Below, piece by piece: positions 46,130 through 51,591 of a DNA stretch of 64,000 nucleotides. The notes beneath the pieces are model-generated. The model saw only the letters and a list, made by a program, of their open reading frames with translations, was not told where the DNA came from and did not search any database. The stretch comes from Microbacterium aurantiacum (GTDB lineage Bacteria > Actinomycetota > Actinomycetes > Actinomycetales > Microbacteriaceae): NCBI RefSeq assembly GCF_021654035.1, contig NZ_JAJPDW010000001.1, positions 682,001-746,000 on the forward strand, in the 5' to 3' direction. Every line of letters begins with the position of its first letter. The stretch's first letter is position 1. The position numbers were made by a program, and so were the translations under genes.

Positions 46130-46205
46130 GTGAAAAACGCGGGAGATATCGTCCAGAACGGGCCCCGCGAGCCCCGACACGCCGGAAATCTCCCCGGGGT
46201 TTGAC
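46130..46205. repeat. Intergenic palindromic repeat, copy 1 (76 nt)
   Basis: Arms GTGAAAAACGCGGGAGA (46130-46146) and TCTCCCCGGGGTTTGAC (46189-46205) can pair imperfectly; core CCGACACGCCG at 46174-46184. Identical in length to copy 2 (46714-46789) and 65 of 76 bases match. It lies in the gap between the LLM gene and the next membrane gene; the remainder of the gap is GC-rich without features. Confidence 0.85.
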
Positions 46206-46289
46206 GAGGTGTCCGGCATCCCCCCGGTTCGCTTGTCGCGTCTTGCGGGTCGGACGGCGCCGCATCCGCAACACTCGTCGAGTGATCGG

Positions 46290-46676
46290 TCAGATGAGGC
46301 GGGCGAAGGCCAGGGCGGGGATCCAGGCGGAGGTGAAGAGGGCGTAGCCCGCGGTCACCGAGGTGAGCACGAGGCCGATGCGGGCGATGGTGCGGGCCGC
46401 ACGCGGGTGCGCACGCGCCACGACCAGCGCCAGCGCGACCGGGACGATCGCGCTGATCGCGACCAGGGCCGTGCCGACCTGCGCGGCGGAGACACGGTCG
46501 CTCGGGAAGCAGTTCCTCGGGCCGGGCATGCTCAGTGCGCAGGCCTCGGGGCCGGTCGGCACCACCACCAGCCACAGGATGCCGAGCCCGACCGCGGCGG
46601 TCACGATGACCGCGGCGACCACCGCATGCAACCGGCGGTCTGTCTCGGGCGCGACCCGCAAGGTCGGGGAGCTCAT
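46290..46676 (-). CDS. Small membrane protein (128 aa, three predicted TM segments)
   Basis: Hydrophobic segments at about 16-38, 65-86 and 97-120. The first outside loop carries two Cys in EACALSMPGPRNCFPSD, possibly a disulfide. No family recognised. ATG 46676. Remarkably it is bracketed by the two copies of the 76-nt repeat. Confidence 0.65.
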   Translation of the reverse strand: MSSPTLRVAPETDRRLHAVVAAVIVTAAVGLGILWLVVVPTGPEACALSMPGPRNCFPSDRVSAAQVGTALVAISAIVPVALALVVARAHPRAARTIARIGLVLTSVTAGYALFTSAWIPALAFARLI

Positions 46677-46713
46677 GGAGCCGACTGTAGCGGCGCAGTT
46701 GCGCGGGCTCCCG

Positions 46714-46789
46714 GTGAAAGACGCGGGAGAAATCGGCCCGAAGGGGCCCCGAGAGGGCCGACACGCCGCAGATCTCCCCGGGGTTTCAC
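46714..46789. repeat. Intergenic palindromic repeat, copy 2 (76 nt)
   Basis: Arms GTGAAAGACGCGGGAGA (46714-46730) and TCTCCCCGGGGTTTCAC (46773-46789) pair at 13 of 17 positions; an inner stem CGGCCC/GGGCCG is possible; core CCGACACGCCG at 46758-46768. It lies 38 bp upstream of the membrane gene it brackets and 28 bp after the DUF4166 gene end. Confidence 0.85.
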
Positions 46790-46816
46790 GAGGTCGCGCG
46801 CGGCGACCCGGCGAAC

Positions 46817-47485
46817 TCAGACGCGGGGCTCGTGCCGGAGGGGCAGGAGACGCGGCGGCACAGGGCCGGCCGGCATCCACTCGCACACGAAGCTGCCGCG
46901 ATAGCCGAACAGGAAGCCGAATCGGTCGTTGTGCACCTCGAGGTCGATGTGGAACCGGCCGTCGGCGTCGTCGAACCGCTCGCGCAACGTCGCCCGCCCG
47001 CTGAGCGACATCGGAAACCGGAACGACACCGGCCCCTCGTGGAACCGCTGCGCCCCCGACCGGAGGAGCAGCGAACCGTCGTCCTGCACGCTCAGGTCCA
47101 GATCGACGGCCAGGTGCTGGTGCGTCCCGAGGTAGTCGACGACCCGCCCGTCGCTGAGGATCATGGTCGCGTCGAACCGTCGGCGCTTCCCGTCGATCAC
47201 GTACTCGCGGACGAAGGTCACCGTCTCCCGCCCGAACGGGTCGAGGTAGGGGCGGTTGTCGATCCGGAACGGCACGTTCTCACTGACATCCGGAATGAGG
47301 ATGTTCCGCATCCGTCCGATCTGCAGGAACGGCACGGTCCACCACGGGCCGCGCCGGATCTGCGTCATCACCCCGGTGCCGACGCAGGCCTCACCGCCGA
47401 GCCGCACGTCGAAACGCCGTTGCAGCATCGGATGCAGTCGGCTGAACGCGTCCTCGCCGAGCGCCGCGCGGAACACCGAGGTCAC
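46817..47485 (-). CDS. DUF4166-domain protein
   Basis: 222 residues. Family pattern: SVFRAALGEDAFSRLHPMLQRRF, then GVMTQIRRGPWWTVPFL near the start, GRETVTFVREY in the middle and HNDRFGFLFGYRGSFVCEW near the end. Function unknown; DUF4166 proteins are often linked with lipid- or NAD-binding partners. The GTG at 47485 overlaps the stop of the SRPBCC gene (GTGA), so the two are co-translated. Confidence 0.82.
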   Translation of the reverse strand: MTSVFRAALGEDAFSRLHPMLQRRFDVRLGGEACVGTGVMTQIRRGPWWTVPFLQIGRMRNILIPDVSENVPFRIDNRPYLDPFGRETVTFVREYVIDGKRRRFDATMILSDGRVVDYLGTHQHLAVDLDLSVQDDGSLLLRSGAQRFHEGPVSFRFPMSLSGRATLRERFDDADGRFHIDLEVHNDRFGFLFGYRGSFVCEWMPAGPVPPRLLPLRHEPRV

Positions 47486-48048
47486 CGGCTGTGCCTCCCG
47501 CCCTCGGGCGCGCGACGGCACCGCGCGGCGCGCGGGCGTTCCGGTCGCCAGAACCACAGGACGCTCCGCAGCGGCCATCGTTCGGGCTCCTCGCCGCGCT
47601 CGAGCCAGATGCGCAGCCGATCGAAACTCCATGCCGTCGCCCACCCGATCACCGGCCGCACGACGAGGTCGAGCACGCCCCAGCCCGGCGCGTAGTCGTA
47701 GCCCGTGAGGAAACGGATGCCGCCTCCCGCGGGCACGTAGCGCCAGTACCCGCGTCCGGACTGCAGCGGCGACAGTCGATCGGCGGTGTCGAACCGCAGT
47801 GCCGACGTGCGCGTGCCATCCGGTCGGTCGCGCTCGCCGAGGCTCACCCCGGTGCCGCGGATGACCCGGACCGGCGTCGCCCGCTCGTAGTCGAACGTCG
47901 TCGCGCCGTCCGTCGTCGTCCCGGTCGGGACGATCCGCGAGAACCGCAGGTCCCAGCGCGCGTGGGCGACCGGATTCTGCGTCGCCGTCCAGACGGCATC
48001 CATGTCCGCGGAGATGACCGTCTCCACATAGATCTGCCGCGCACCCAC
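47482..48048 (-). CDS. SRPBCC/polyketide-cyclase-like hydrophobic-ligand-binding protein
   Basis: 188 residues. N-terminal IYVETVISADMDAVWTATQNPVAHARWDLRFSRI is the classic SRPBCC start (helix-grip fold with a hydrophobic pocket), followed by antiparallel strands and a C-terminal helix AWSFDRLRIWLERGE. A basic tail follows. Ligand unknown. The GTG at 48048 follows TACGGT with a 6-nt spacer (leaderless), and the DUF4166 gene overlaps its stop. Confidence 0.8.
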   Translation of the reverse strand: MGARQIYVETVISADMDAVWTATQNPVAHARWDLRFSRIVPTGTTTDGATTFDYERATPVRVIRGTGVSLGERDRPDGTRTSALRFDTADRLSPLQSGRGYWRYVPAGGGIRFLTGYDYAPGWGVLDLVVRPVIGWATAWSFDRLRIWLERGEEPERWPLRSVLWFWRPERPRAARCRRAPEGGRHSR

Positions 48049-48156
48049 CCGTCGACCGTAGCGAGTCCGGGACGATGCCCGGGTACCCGCGCGGGCGGAT
48101 CGTCGCTTACCGTGGAAGGTGCGCTCGCCCCCGGGAGCGCAGAGCGGAAGGCACTC

Positions 48157-48567
48157 ATGAAGATCGTCGCATCGGCCGATTGGCGGGACGGACTCGAGTA
48201 CGACATCCCGGTCCTCGTCTCCGACGTCATTCCCGGCGAGCCGACCAAGTGCTTCGCGTGCGGCACCGAATCGCCGCTGCGCGAGCGGGATGAGCTGTGG
48301 GCGGTCAAGCACCGGCATCCGAAGAACCACGACGGGTTCGTGCGGTTCTACTGCATCCGGCACGTGCCGCCGTTGCCGGTCGCCCCCGCGGCCCCGGCTC
48401 CGGCACCTGCCCGCGCGCGCCGCGCTCCGGCCGTGCCGCGTGCGGAGCGCACCGTCGCCCCGCGCCGCACGCAGGACTTCGACCGCGTGCGCGCGATGTG
48501 CCCGAACTGCTTCGTGGAGGTCTCTGCGGCCGGCGAGTGCGGCATGTGCGGCTGGTCGGCGGCGTGA
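48157..48567 (+). CDS. Hypothetical protein with paired Cys motifs (possible zinc binder)
   Basis: 136 residues from ATG 48157. N-terminal CFACG (Cys pair) and a CIRH, an Ala/Pro/Arg-rich linker (about 75-100), then CPNCFVEVSAAGECGMCGW, a four-Cys zinc-ribbon-like tail. Zinc binding is likely; no family name can be given. A TACCGT box lies about 45 nt upstream. Confidence 0.6.
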   Translation: MKIVASADWRDGLEYDIPVLVSDVIPGEPTKCFACGTESPLRERDELWAVKHRHPKNHDGFVRFYCIRHVPPLPVAPAAPAPAPARARRAPAVPRAERTVAPRRTQDFDRVRAMCPNCFVEVSAAGECGMCGWSAA

Positions 48568-48603
48568 GCCGGCGCCGCCGCACCCCGACGCGAGGCTGAC
48601 CGC

Positions 48604-49311
48604 GTGAGCGACGTCGAGCTCGCCCGCATTCCCGCCGGAGTCCTCGACCTCGCCGCCGCGCGCGGCCGACCGCGGCGGCGCGTCGCCCTCGACGCCTTCG
48701 AGCTGGGGGTGTATCCCGTCACCGAGGAACAGCTCGCGGAGGTCATCGGCGAGTCCGCGGCGCACCCGCGCCGCCCCGCCGTCGGGGTGAGCTGGTTGCG
48801 TGCGATCCGTTTCTGCAACGCCCTGTCTGAGTGGGAAGGGCTCGACGCGGCCTACACGTTCGACGGCGAAGACGTCACGTGGCACGTCGATTCCGACGGC
48901 TACCGACTTCCCACCGAGGCCGAGTGGGAGTACGCCTGCCGTGCCGGATCCACCGGCGCCCACTACGGACCTCTCCGCGAGATCGCGTGGACGGCGGCCG
49001 ACGGGGTCGGCGCACCGCAAGAGGTCGGCGCGCGGCATCCGAATCTGTTCGGACTCTTCGACACGCTCGGGAACGTCTGGGAGTGGTGTTGGGATCTCTT
49101 CGATCCGGCGCAGCATCGCGCGGTGCGGGTGCTCCGCGGCGGGTCGTTCGCCGACGACGCCGGCAGCGCGCGTGCGGCGACCCGACGGGGCGACGCCCCG
49201 CGCGAGGGGTACCCCGACGTCGGCTTCCGCGTCGCCCGGGGCGGGTTCGACGCGGTCGACGCGGCGCAAGGCTGGTCGGCCCGAGAAGACCGCGACCGTG
49301 CGCTGGAGTGA
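48604..49311 (+). CDS. FGE-sulfatase/SUMF1-domain protein lacking the catalytic cysteines
   Basis: 235 residues. Clear formylglycine-generating-enzyme (C-type lectin-like) fold: FELGVYPVTEEQLAEVI, YRLPTEAEWEYACRAG, NLFGLFDTLGNVWEWCWD and VLRGGSF. The two copper-binding Cys of active FGE in the C-terminal strand region are not present: after RGGSF there is no Cys. So it is probably a non-catalytic member, a binding or EgtB/PvdO-like scaffold. GTG 48604. Confidence 0.82.
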   Translation: MSDVELARIPAGVLDLAAARGRPRRRVALDAFELGVYPVTEEQLAEVIGESAAHPRRPAVGVSWLRAIRFCNALSEWEGLDAAYTFDGEDVTWHVDSDGYRLPTEAEWEYACRAGSTGAHYGPLREIAWTAADGVGAPQEVGARHPNLFGLFDTLGNVWEWCWDLFDPAQHRAVRVLRGGSFADDAGSARAATRRGDAPREGYPDVGFRVARGGFDAVDAAQGWSAREDRDRALE

Positions 49312-49340
49312 TCGCCCGACCGTGCGCATCAGCGCGCGCG

Positions 49341-49346
49341 TAGTCT
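49341..49346 (+). promoter_or_regulatory. -10 box TAGTCT of menB
   Basis: TAGTCT lies exactly 6 nt before the GTG of menB, so a leaderless transcript is predicted. Confidence 0.65.
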
Positions 49347-49352
49347 GGGCGG

Positions 49353-50261
49353 GTGAGCGTATCGGACCTGTTCGACGAGAGTTCCTGGATGCCGGCCCCC
49401 GGCGCCCCCGACGGCGGATACACCGACATCACGTCGCACGTGTCGCTCGACGGCCGCATCGCGCGCATCGCGTTCGACCGTCCTGAGGTGCGGAACGCCT
49501 TCCGCCCGCACACGGTCGACGAGCTGTTCCGGGCCCTCGACATCGCACGTCAGGATCCGAGGATCGGGGTGGTCCTCCTCACCGGCAACGGTCCGAGCCC
49601 GAAGGACGGCGGCTGGGCGTTCTGCTCGGGCGGCGATCAGCGCATCCGCGGCCGCGACGGCTACACCTACGCCGCCGATGACGCGGTGGCGCCGGATGCC
49701 GCGCGCGCGGGCCGCCTCCACATCCTCGAGGTGCAGCGGCTCATCCGGTTCATGCCGAAGGTCGTCATCGCCGTCATCCCGGGCTGGGCCGCCGGGGGAG
49801 GGCACTCGCTGCATGTCGTGTGCGACATGTCGATCGCGAGCGCCGAGCACGGGCGCTTCAAGCAGACGGATGCCGATGTCGGCTCGTTCGACGCCGGCTA
49901 CGGATCCGCGTACTTCGCCCGCCAGATCGGGCAGAAATTCGCCCGCGAGGTCTTCTTCCTCGCCGAGGAGTACTCCGCCGAGCGCGCGTACGAGATGGGC
50001 GCCGTCAACCGGGTGGTGCCGCACGCCGAGCTCGAGCGTGAGGCGATCGCGATGGCGCGGACGATCCTGACGAAGTCGCCGACCGCGATCCGGATGCTGA
50101 AGTTCGCCTTCAACGCCGTCGACGACGGGATGGTCGGGCAGCAGGTGTTCGCCGGAGAGGCGACGCGCCTGGCCTACGGCACAGACGAGGCCGTCGAGGG
50201 GCGCGACTCCTTCCTCGAAAAGCGCGACCCGGACTGGTCGCCGTACCCCTGGCACTACTGA
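49353..50261 (+). CDS. menB: 1,4-dihydroxy-2-naphthoyl-CoA synthase
   Basis: 302 residues, crotonase fold. Forms the second ring of menaquinone from o-succinylbenzoyl-CoA. Seen: RPEVRNAFRPHTVDEL (N-terminal lid), SGGDQRIRGRDGY (CoA/substrate loop with the family Gly pair), IAVIPGWAAGGGHSLHVVCD (oxyanion hole) and KQTDADVGSFDAGYGS (catalytic Asp region). Ends DPDWSPYPWHY. Followed by the 80-nt palindromic element and menE. Confidence 0.95.
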   Translation: MSVSDLFDESSWMPAPGAPDGGYTDITSHVSLDGRIARIAFDRPEVRNAFRPHTVDELFRALDIARQDPRIGVVLLTGNGPSPKDGGWAFCSGGDQRIRGRDGYTYAADDAVAPDAARAGRLHILEVQRLIRFMPKVVIAVIPGWAAGGGHSLHVVCDMSIASAEHGRFKQTDADVGSFDAGYGSAYFARQIGQKFAREVFFLAEEYSAERAYEMGAVNRVVPHAELEREAIAMARTILTKSPTAIRMLKFAFNAVDDGMVGQQVFAGEATRLAYGTDEAVEGRDSFLEKRDPDWSPYPWHY

Positions 50262-50292
50262 TGGGGGCCGGATGCCGGCCGGGCGCGGCGGG

Positions 50293-50372
50293 CCGAACTC
50301 CTCCGATCCGGGGGCGTGAGGGCGGCGCGCGCGGCGTGTCGGCCGGTTTCGGGGCGGGGTTGAGGAGTTCGG
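50293..50372. repeat. Intergenic palindromic repeat, related copy 3 (80 nt)
   Basis: Arms CCGAACTCCTC (50293-50303) and GAGGAGTTCGG (50362-50372) match perfectly over 11 bp. It contains CGGCGTGTCGG (50332-50342), the exact reverse complement of the 11-nt core of copies 1 and 2, and on the reverse strand shares GGCCGACACGCCGC with copy 2. The arms differ from those copies. It fills the menB-menE gap. Confidence 0.75.
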
Positions 50373-50436
50373 TACAGGCGGGCGGGGTGACGACGCCCTC
50401 GCCCGCGGGGCCGACGAACCGCGGGGCGGGCCGGCC

Positions 50437-51591
50437 GTGAAACTCGAGGCGGCGGTGGGGGACGACCCGCGCGACATCCTCCGGGCCCTGAAGGCCGCGA
50501 TCCACGGCCCGGGGCCGGCCCTCGGGGTGGGTCTCGTCGGCGAGTCGCCCGATGACGTTCCGGCGGGGACGGCGGTGGTCGTCACCACCTCCGGGTCGAC
50601 GGGGGTTCCGAAGAGCGTCGTCCTCGGACGGGACGCCCTCATCTCCTCGGCCCTTGCGACCGCCGACCGTATCGGCGAGGGGGCGTGGCTGCTCGCGCTT
50701 CCGGCAACCTATGTCGCCGGCATCCAGGTGCTCGTGCGTTCGATCGTCGCCGGGCGGGAACCCGCGGTGATCTCGGGTTCCTTCTCGCCGCAGGCGTTCG
50801 CCGCGGCCGCGCTGATGATGGCGTCGTCCGAGAACGGCGTCCGCACCCCGACCTTCACCTCGCTGGTCCCGGCCCAGCTGCAGCGCCTCCTCGACGCCGC
50901 CGTCGACGATCACGCGGTCGCGGCGGCCCTCGGGTCCTTCGAGCGCATCCTCATCGGCGGGCAGGCGCTCCCGGCCGCCCTCCGCGAACGCGCCGAGGAC
51001 GCCGGGGTCCGCATCGTCCGCACGTACGGCTCGACCGAGACCAGCGGTGGCTGCGTGTACGACGGCCGTCCCCTTCGCGGCGTGGCGATGCGCATCCGCG
51101 ACGGCGAGGTCCAGCTCAGCGGGCCGGTGCTCGCGTCCGGCTATCTCGGCGAGCCCGATCGCACGCGCGCGGTCTTCGCCACCGATCCGGACGGCACCCG
51201 GTGGTACCGCACGGGGGACGCCGGCATCATCGAGGACGGCGCCCTGCGCGTACAGGGCCGGATCGACAACGTCATCGTCTCGGGCGGGGTCAACATCTCG
51301 CTCGACCGCGTCGAGCACGCCGTGCGGTCCGTGGCAGGGCTGCAGGATGCCGTCGTGGTGGGTGTGCCCGACGACCGCTGGGGCGAAGCCTCGGTCATCG
51401 TCGTTCCGCGGGGGGAGGCCCTGCGGCGGAGCGAGGCGGATCAGCTCCGTCGCGCTCGCGAGGTCGTGGCCGCGGAGGTCGGGCGCCACGCGCGCCCGGC
51501 GCGCCTGGTGCTGGTGGACGAGATCGCCGAACTGCCGTCCGGGAAGCCCGATCGCGAGGCGATCCGTCGCGCCGTCCTGGCCCTGCACTGA
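50437..51591 (+). CDS. menE: o-Succinylbenzoate-CoA ligase
   Basis: 384 residues, adenylate-forming family, shorter at the N-terminus than typical (about 450-500). P-loop TSGSTGVPK at 51-59, middle motif VRTYGSTETSGG, YRTGDAG and GRIDNVIVSGGVNIS, and catalytic Lys370 in PSGKPDRE. Makes o-succinylbenzoyl-CoA for MenB. GTG 50437 with GGGCGGGCC context; no leaderless box, so probably co-transcribed from menB. Confidence 0.93.
   Translation: MKLEAAVGDDPRDILRALKAAIHGPGPALGVGLVGESPDDVPAGTAVVVTTSGSTGVPKSVVLGRDALISSALATADRIGEGAWLLALPATYVAGIQVLVRSIVAGREPAVISGSFSPQAFAAAALMMASSENGVRTPTFTSLVPAQLQRLLDAAVDDHAVAAALGSFERILIGGQALPAALRERAEDAGVRIVRTYGSTETSGGCVYDGRPLRGVAMRIRDGEVQLSGPVLASGYLGEPDRTRAVFATDPDGTRWYRTGDAGIIEDGALRVQGRIDNVIVSGGVNISLDRVEHAVRSVAGLQDAVVVGVPDDRWGEASVIVVPRGEALRRSEADQLRRAREVVAAEVGRHARPARLVLVDEIAELPSGKPDREAIRRAVLALH

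Follow-up and report, generated by a model that had tools for sequence, protein, structure and literature searches.

In bacteria, short palindromic repeats are mostly taken to be hairpins or mobile repetitive extragenic palindromic (REP) sequences. Here we analyse three such repeats in a 64,000-nucleotide stretch of the Microbacterium aurantiacum genome (contig NZ_JAJPDW010000001.1, positions 682,001 to 746,000; hereafter the window), together with their relatives in the genus. Dozens of these elements lie between genes in several Microbacterium genomes. In many species, and with several different arm sequences, their length, their composition and the position of their core keep to the helical repeat of duplex DNA. 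This points to a machine that loops or wraps DNA. In some genomes it would have tens of sites along the chromosome, and its specificity would shift between lineages.

The closest described systems share some of these features. According to PMC3116915, REP doublets (REPINs) are hairpins in which compensatory changes are common, and they come with a RAYT gene. We find neither here; the Microbacterium elements instead have helical-turn length steps, phased A/T and positioned cores. The GTAG and CGTC families of REPs are also inverted dimers of short intergenic repeats, but PMC3733652 describes stem-loop units of 20-40 bp with GTAG or CGTC tails, and most dimers there have spacers that vary between 20 and 100 bp. 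Miniature inverted-repeat transposable elements (MITEs), as outlined in PMC3116915, are short too, with terminal inverted repeats and no coding capacity. The elements studied here differ from them: they show no target duplication, their middles are mostly unrelated and no partner transposase was seen. A DNA gyrase motif (preprint PMC12393610) resembles them in its periodic G/C content along wrapped DNA and in having a GAATTC palindrome within the segment that is bound, but this motif is 130 bp long and has neither fixed arms of 16-23 nt nor stepped lengths. The main text of a REP survey (PMC12306157) does not contain the word Microbacterium. Within the literature searched, nothing was found that describes these elements.

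Each element of the window consists of inverted arms and a middle that carries a core, which we call core II:

46130-46205, + strand: copy 1 of family A; 76 bp, carries the core
46174-46184, + strand: core II CCGACACGCCG in copy 1, exact; its 9-mer CGACACGCC is centred 50 bp from the left end
46714-46789, + strand: copy 2 of family A; 76 bp, carries the core
46758-46768, + strand: core II CCGACACGCCG in copy 2, exact; 9-mer centred 50 bp from the left end
50290-50375, - strand: element of family B; 86 bp when measured in the common frame, between genes that we take to be menB-like and menE-like
50332-50342, - strand: core II CCGACACGCCG in the family B element, exact; 9-mer centred 39 bp from the end at 50375

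An earlier note on this DNA gave the positions, lengths and sequences of the three elements correctly. It described two 76-nt copies around one small gene, identical at 65 of 76 positions (our recount finds the other 11 to differ), and a third element with different arms that carries the exact core on the other strand, as it does. That third element had been delimited as 50293-50372 (80 nt), whose inverted ends of 11 nt are perfect. It appears better delimited as 50290-50375 (86 bp), because its arms then align, by eye, with the family A arms. The core alone is unremarkable: with at most one mismatch, CCGACACGCCG has 9 matches in the window against 12.9 expected. The ends of family A (GTGAAAC..GTTTCAC) resemble the half-sites of parS in the ParB/parS system, but they point the opposite way and lie 76 bp apart, and the other arm families are unlike parS.

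The proposal that all three belong to one element type, to be checked by searching the genome for further copies, is borne out. Both families fit one frame drawn by eye, and the source genome (3.02 Mb) contains many copies. Family-B arms (GAACTCCTC..GAGGAGTTC, 50-75 bp apart) occur there in 29 exact-arm copies, and the reversed pattern in none, which puts the elements well outside chance. The sequence GGAGGAGTT occurs 105 times (18 in the control), and the core 10-mer CGACACGCCG 44 times against 22 for its reversed control, only a twofold difference. Nine recognisable copies of family A (GTGAAA..TTTCAC, 75-76 bp) were found in loci fetched from the same genome. Across the genus, 14 of 149 genomes contain the family-B pattern (29 matches in G000, 47 in G085), where some single matches are coding coincidences. 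The clearest such coincidence is a coding mimic of exactly 76 bp (NSS..VEEF) at the start of what is presumably rdgB in six species (G048, G080, G081, G121, G132 and G140); we translated it for two of them and recognised it by sequence in the other four. The family-A pattern is present in 13 genomes, and we judge it genuine in four (G000, G012, G049 and G068). The match in G056 is parS-like and was not counted as genuine, and G038 was counted neither way. Viral contigs have no match to family-C arms, and their 24 family-B pattern matches, of varied span, were taken as chance.

Further arm sequences behave in the same way. In Microbacterium rhizomatis JCM 30598 the arm CAACGCAGGA occurs 43+44 times, against 5 and 1 for the controls, and 76 of the 87 exact matches, counted from the match list, sit in exact inverted pairs. 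Family E, whose arms are ATTCAGTCT, was followed in four genomes; of its 88 exact arm matches, 64 are paired by a count from the match list.

One intergenic gap ties these families together. The family-A copies of G049 and G068 occupy the same gap, between genes that we take to be ppa and tilS; their ends and length are conserved and the middle has changed. The ppa protein of G049, a genome of the same genus as the window, is 95-96% identical to named Microbacterium records, in agreement with the placement of the window in Microbacterium. Among the 57 of 80 ppa loci whose gap was read, elements with several arm types turn up (among them GTGAAA, GAACTCCTC, CAACGCAGGA, GCAGAACTCC, ATTCAGTCT and CTCAGGATC), and the differing types can be aligned by eye in one frame. 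This alignment, with 41 arms chosen and placed by eye, fits a superfamily in many Microbacterium species that would include families A and B: two inverted arms of about 16-23 nt, which differ between lineages, around mostly unrelated middles. In other species the gap is short. Two loci (L178 and L191) have what looks, by eye, like a leftover right arm (CGTTGTGTCG and CGTCGTGTCG) fused to the tilS side; the element may have been deleted there. A third (L217) contains a 98-bp element with mixed arms, one of family-B type and one of CTGAGT type, plus a match to core III (see below).

Element length increases in steps of about one helical turn. In the common frame, family B equals family A plus about one turn. 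We measured 29 elements in this frame, 23 from the 57 of 80 ppa loci and 6 from the 44 menB loci with a readable menB-menE gap; the genomes of these six may coincide with some of the 23, and six of the 30 loci in one menB set were read on the wrong strand. Lengths are 74-77 bp (8 elements), 85-87 bp (14), 97-99 bp (6) and 82 bp (1), so that 28 of the 29 fall into three narrow classes (Rayleigh R 0.83 at a period of 11 bp). This count omits other inverted repeats in these gaps (among them L187, L389, L398, L399, L403 and L411) as well as L417, which has a fitting length of 76 bp. Single families behave similarly. Among the fetched family-B loci, 57 of 66 distinct exact-arm cases, of which a few are coding coincidences, have a span of 75 or 76 bp, as do 18 of 20 cases with one mismatch. 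The 42 pairs of M. rhizomatis span 76 bp (6), 77 bp (18), 88 bp (15) and 99 bp (1), with odd pairings at 103 and 122 bp, and the 32 pairs of family E span 71-73 bp (5) or 83-85 bp (27). The family-E regions were picked because the match list showed pairs. A generic histogram of inverted repeats over 80 loci has no length peak; the steps therefore become visible only once the arms are known.

The middles follow the same repeat in their composition. For family B we kept 47 of 75 middles, all less than 60% alike, dropped the other 28 as similar and then removed one coding case. A/T content oscillates with a period of 10 at an amplitude of 0.105 for 29 elements of 76 bp and 0.114 for 17 elements of 75 bp, whereas 1000 shuffles reach at most 0.029 and 0.039. 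In the flanks the periodicity is not significant (102 and 196 of 1000 shuffles). The A/T steps are about 10.4 bp apart. Seven sets, drawn from four arm families (family A with 12 of its 14 listed copies), have a phase of 7.1-8.4 (mod 10.4) as measured from the arms; all seven exceed their own null maximum, and their peaks fall within 1.3 bp of a common phase.

Some middles also carry a positioned core. In six arm types, three of which are single cases, the centre of core II lies at 39 or 40 bp, counted from one end, or is shifted by 10 bp to 29/30 or 50 bp. In M. rhizomatis 17 of the 18 elements of 77 bp have CGACACGCC (one of them mismatched), 15 centred at 40 bp and two at 30 bp, and one 73-bp element of family E has it at position 40. 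A one-mismatch core match in L184 falls within an arm. A second core, core III, is the degenerate CCGCGGAATTCCGCGG and marks much of the 98-bp class. The C-88 class of M. rhizomatis (13 elements) has the central consensus CCsCGgaaTTCCGsGg, and many family-E elements of 83-85 bp have, by eye, a similar central core. Outside any dyad element that we saw, near position 1500 of L016, CGACACGCCG is followed by two more GCGACACGCCC repeats, possibly a promoter motif.

Phasing extends beyond the single element. Elements form local arrays of up to five, and the linkers between adjacent family-B elements measure 44, 54-56, 65, 75-77, 83-88, 95-96, 107, 115-128, 140 and 151 bp. For the 31 linkers below 160 bp, R is 0.72 at 10.75 bp, and no jittered set among 5000 gets that high; when linkers of up to 420 bp are included, R is 0.54-0.59 at 10.25-11 bp. 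Neighbouring elements in arrays are helically phased.

The reading we prefer, and think probable without being confident of it, is that each element is a duplex-DNA site for looping or wrapping by a putative protein, rather than an RNA or a REPIN. Inverted arms, whole-turn spacing and a bendable or core-marked middle are what a loop or wrap held by a protein needs. The element length is indeed set by the helical repeat, and the bendable steps are phased, if weakly in class III. A sequence-specific protein would bind both inverted arms, and the DNA between them would bend to form roughly one tight loop or wrap, 7, 8 or 9 helical turns long (about 76, 86 and 98 bp). We infer this bend because the lengths are stepped and the A/T steps phased. 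Whole-turn spacing would put both arms on the same face. The middle may come in three classes: phased A/T steps alone (class I), CGACACGCCG at a fixed place (class II) or the degenerate CCGCGGAATTCCGCGG at the centre (class III). The cores of classes II and III are probably bound by further bending factors. Selection would keep the arms, the core, the spacing and the phase while the remainder drifts, and the arms may change between lineages together with their unseen binding protein. Arms and core provide a clear handle for fishing out this protein. The earlier note had offered a REP-like mobile palindrome, a regulatory RNA or a protein-binding structure; the last fits best, refined here to helical phasing of duplex DNA, and the other two fare poorly.

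Several observations weigh against looping or wrapping. The binding protein was not found, and 20 of 74 listed flanking genes, scanned in Pfam, contain no recurring DNA-binding family. The length steps are unequal (about 10.5 and 12 bp), the anchors in the two gaps were placed by eye, and the 82-bp element of L433 is off the steps, as is an uncounted shorter dyad in L398. The A/T waves of class III are weak (0.070 vs 0.043 and 0.042 vs 0.029). The class rules have exceptions: core II is missing from L289 and from both L312 elements of 77 bp, which belong to another genome; two family-B sequences in L103 that match the core with one mismatch are off phase, 18 bp from the centre; and simple expressions for core III matched just 2 of the 6 elements of 97-99 bp. 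Lastly, a mobile origin is also compatible with the patchy distribution, with the short gaps in many relatives and with some distant copies whose middles are 66-84% alike.

Such an origin would make the elements non-autonomous, with a REPIN- or MITE-like lifestyle. An enzyme acting in trans would copy them; its synaptic complex would require the duplex to be looped over a whole number of turns, and arms and core would be its recognition sites. Local arrays suit this scenario, and so do gaps that carry differently armed elements in different species. Yet none of the seven genomes searched (G000, G085, G121, G132, which is 72% complete, G049, G149 and G151) gave a match to the RAYT domain PF01797 at E<=1, in a search whose control gave a signal in 10 of 14 cases and exceeded the cut-off in 6. 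The earlier note saw no transposase nearby; we saw none near the elements either, and none is among the 20 flanking genes scanned. For 49 elements, flank identity has no consistent excess over mismatched flanks and thus gives no sign of a target duplication. With REPs the elements do share inverted conserved ends at a set distance, a place between genes and a high copy number. Unlike decaying insertions, however, they have nearly unmutated arms around mostly unrelated middles. Among similar copies the arms differ at 12 of 738 sites (B) and 3 of 240 (C), the middles at 537 of 2370 (B) and 133 of 750 (C); one pair is the rdgB coincidence, and the counts are biased because the arms were the search key. 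The arm pairing rates (76/87 and 64/88) are a less biased sign of constraint. In M. rhizomatis the mean identity of middles is 0.41-0.49, compared to 0.32-0.36 when permuted. On descent from a single founder the middles point both ways: most are unrelated, and those of some distant copies are 66-84% alike. On this evidence we regard a mobile lifestyle as unlikely, and we weakly prefer sites that serve the host over sites that serve a copying system.

A structured RNA or terminator hairpin, transcribed from the intergenic DNA, is far less probable still. The arms are able to pair, some elements lie near gene ends, and single elements fold into stable hairpins, but we rejected these folds as a signal, since their energies are close to those of elements with shuffled middles (mean z of -0.29 for B, -0.48 for C76, 0.27 for C77, -0.32 for C88 and -0.54 for E84; standard errors 0.21-0.33). 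In 52 ungapped 76-mers (duplicates included) pairing within the middle is near the expectation from column composition, except at 10:67 and 11:66 beside the arms (z 3.5-3.6), 22:55 (2.5) and 12:65 (2.0). In 75-mers no pairing z exceeds 1.5. Rfam has no match in the window at gathering scores, and the lengths track turns of DNA. The earlier note would have given up the element without compensatory changes in the arms; their lack in the middles speaks against a hairpin, and the element itself stands.

Looping repressors work through helically phased inverted operators. The elements could thus be sites of a conventional looping transcription regulator acting on nearby genes, and those between ppa and tilS do lie between divergent genes. 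Among the 33 of 49 elements with a clear call, though, the flanking genes are in tandem in 15 cases, convergent in 11 and divergent in only 7. Intergenic placement here rests on a crude gene caller: in the other 16, as in several array cases, a frame crossed the element, which we took as a miscall. Adjoining genes have unrelated functions, and arrays of up to five elements also fit a conventional regulator badly. A few neighbours recur between species, none of them evidently DNA-binding; by sequence we take the recurring ones to be trpS-like, chalcone-synthase-like and HAD-like, and one IclR regulator is among the 20 genes scanned. We therefore consider this explanation improbable.

With low confidence, we take the most likely role of the sites to be architectural, as domain sites or insulator-like sites between genes. 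A bolder proposal, which we make tentatively and would not yet bet on, is that they are a previously undescribed kind of element: modular, sequence-programmed wrap sites with one fast-changing arm-binding protein per lineage, loops of 7, 8 or 9 turns and interchangeable middles (phased A/T, CGACACGCCG or CCGCGGAATTCCGCGG). Neighbours in helical register would then form a nucleosome-like intergenic architecture.

The genes beside the elements in the window are:

46290-46676, - strand: small gene flanked by both copies of family A; about 128 aa if it starts at the ATG
49353-50261, + strand: enoyl-CoA hydratase family gene (presumably menB-like), precedes the family B element
50437-51591, + strand: AMP-binding enzyme gene (presumably menE-like), comes after the family B element

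The longest frame of the small gene has 198 aa from a GTG and would read through family A copy 2; we assume the ATG at 46676. Its segment 46293-46673 has no Pfam match. An arrangement that resembles this bracketed gene occurs at G000:C11:474943-477130 (L103:4943-7130), where four family-A elements occupy adjacent gaps around single genes.

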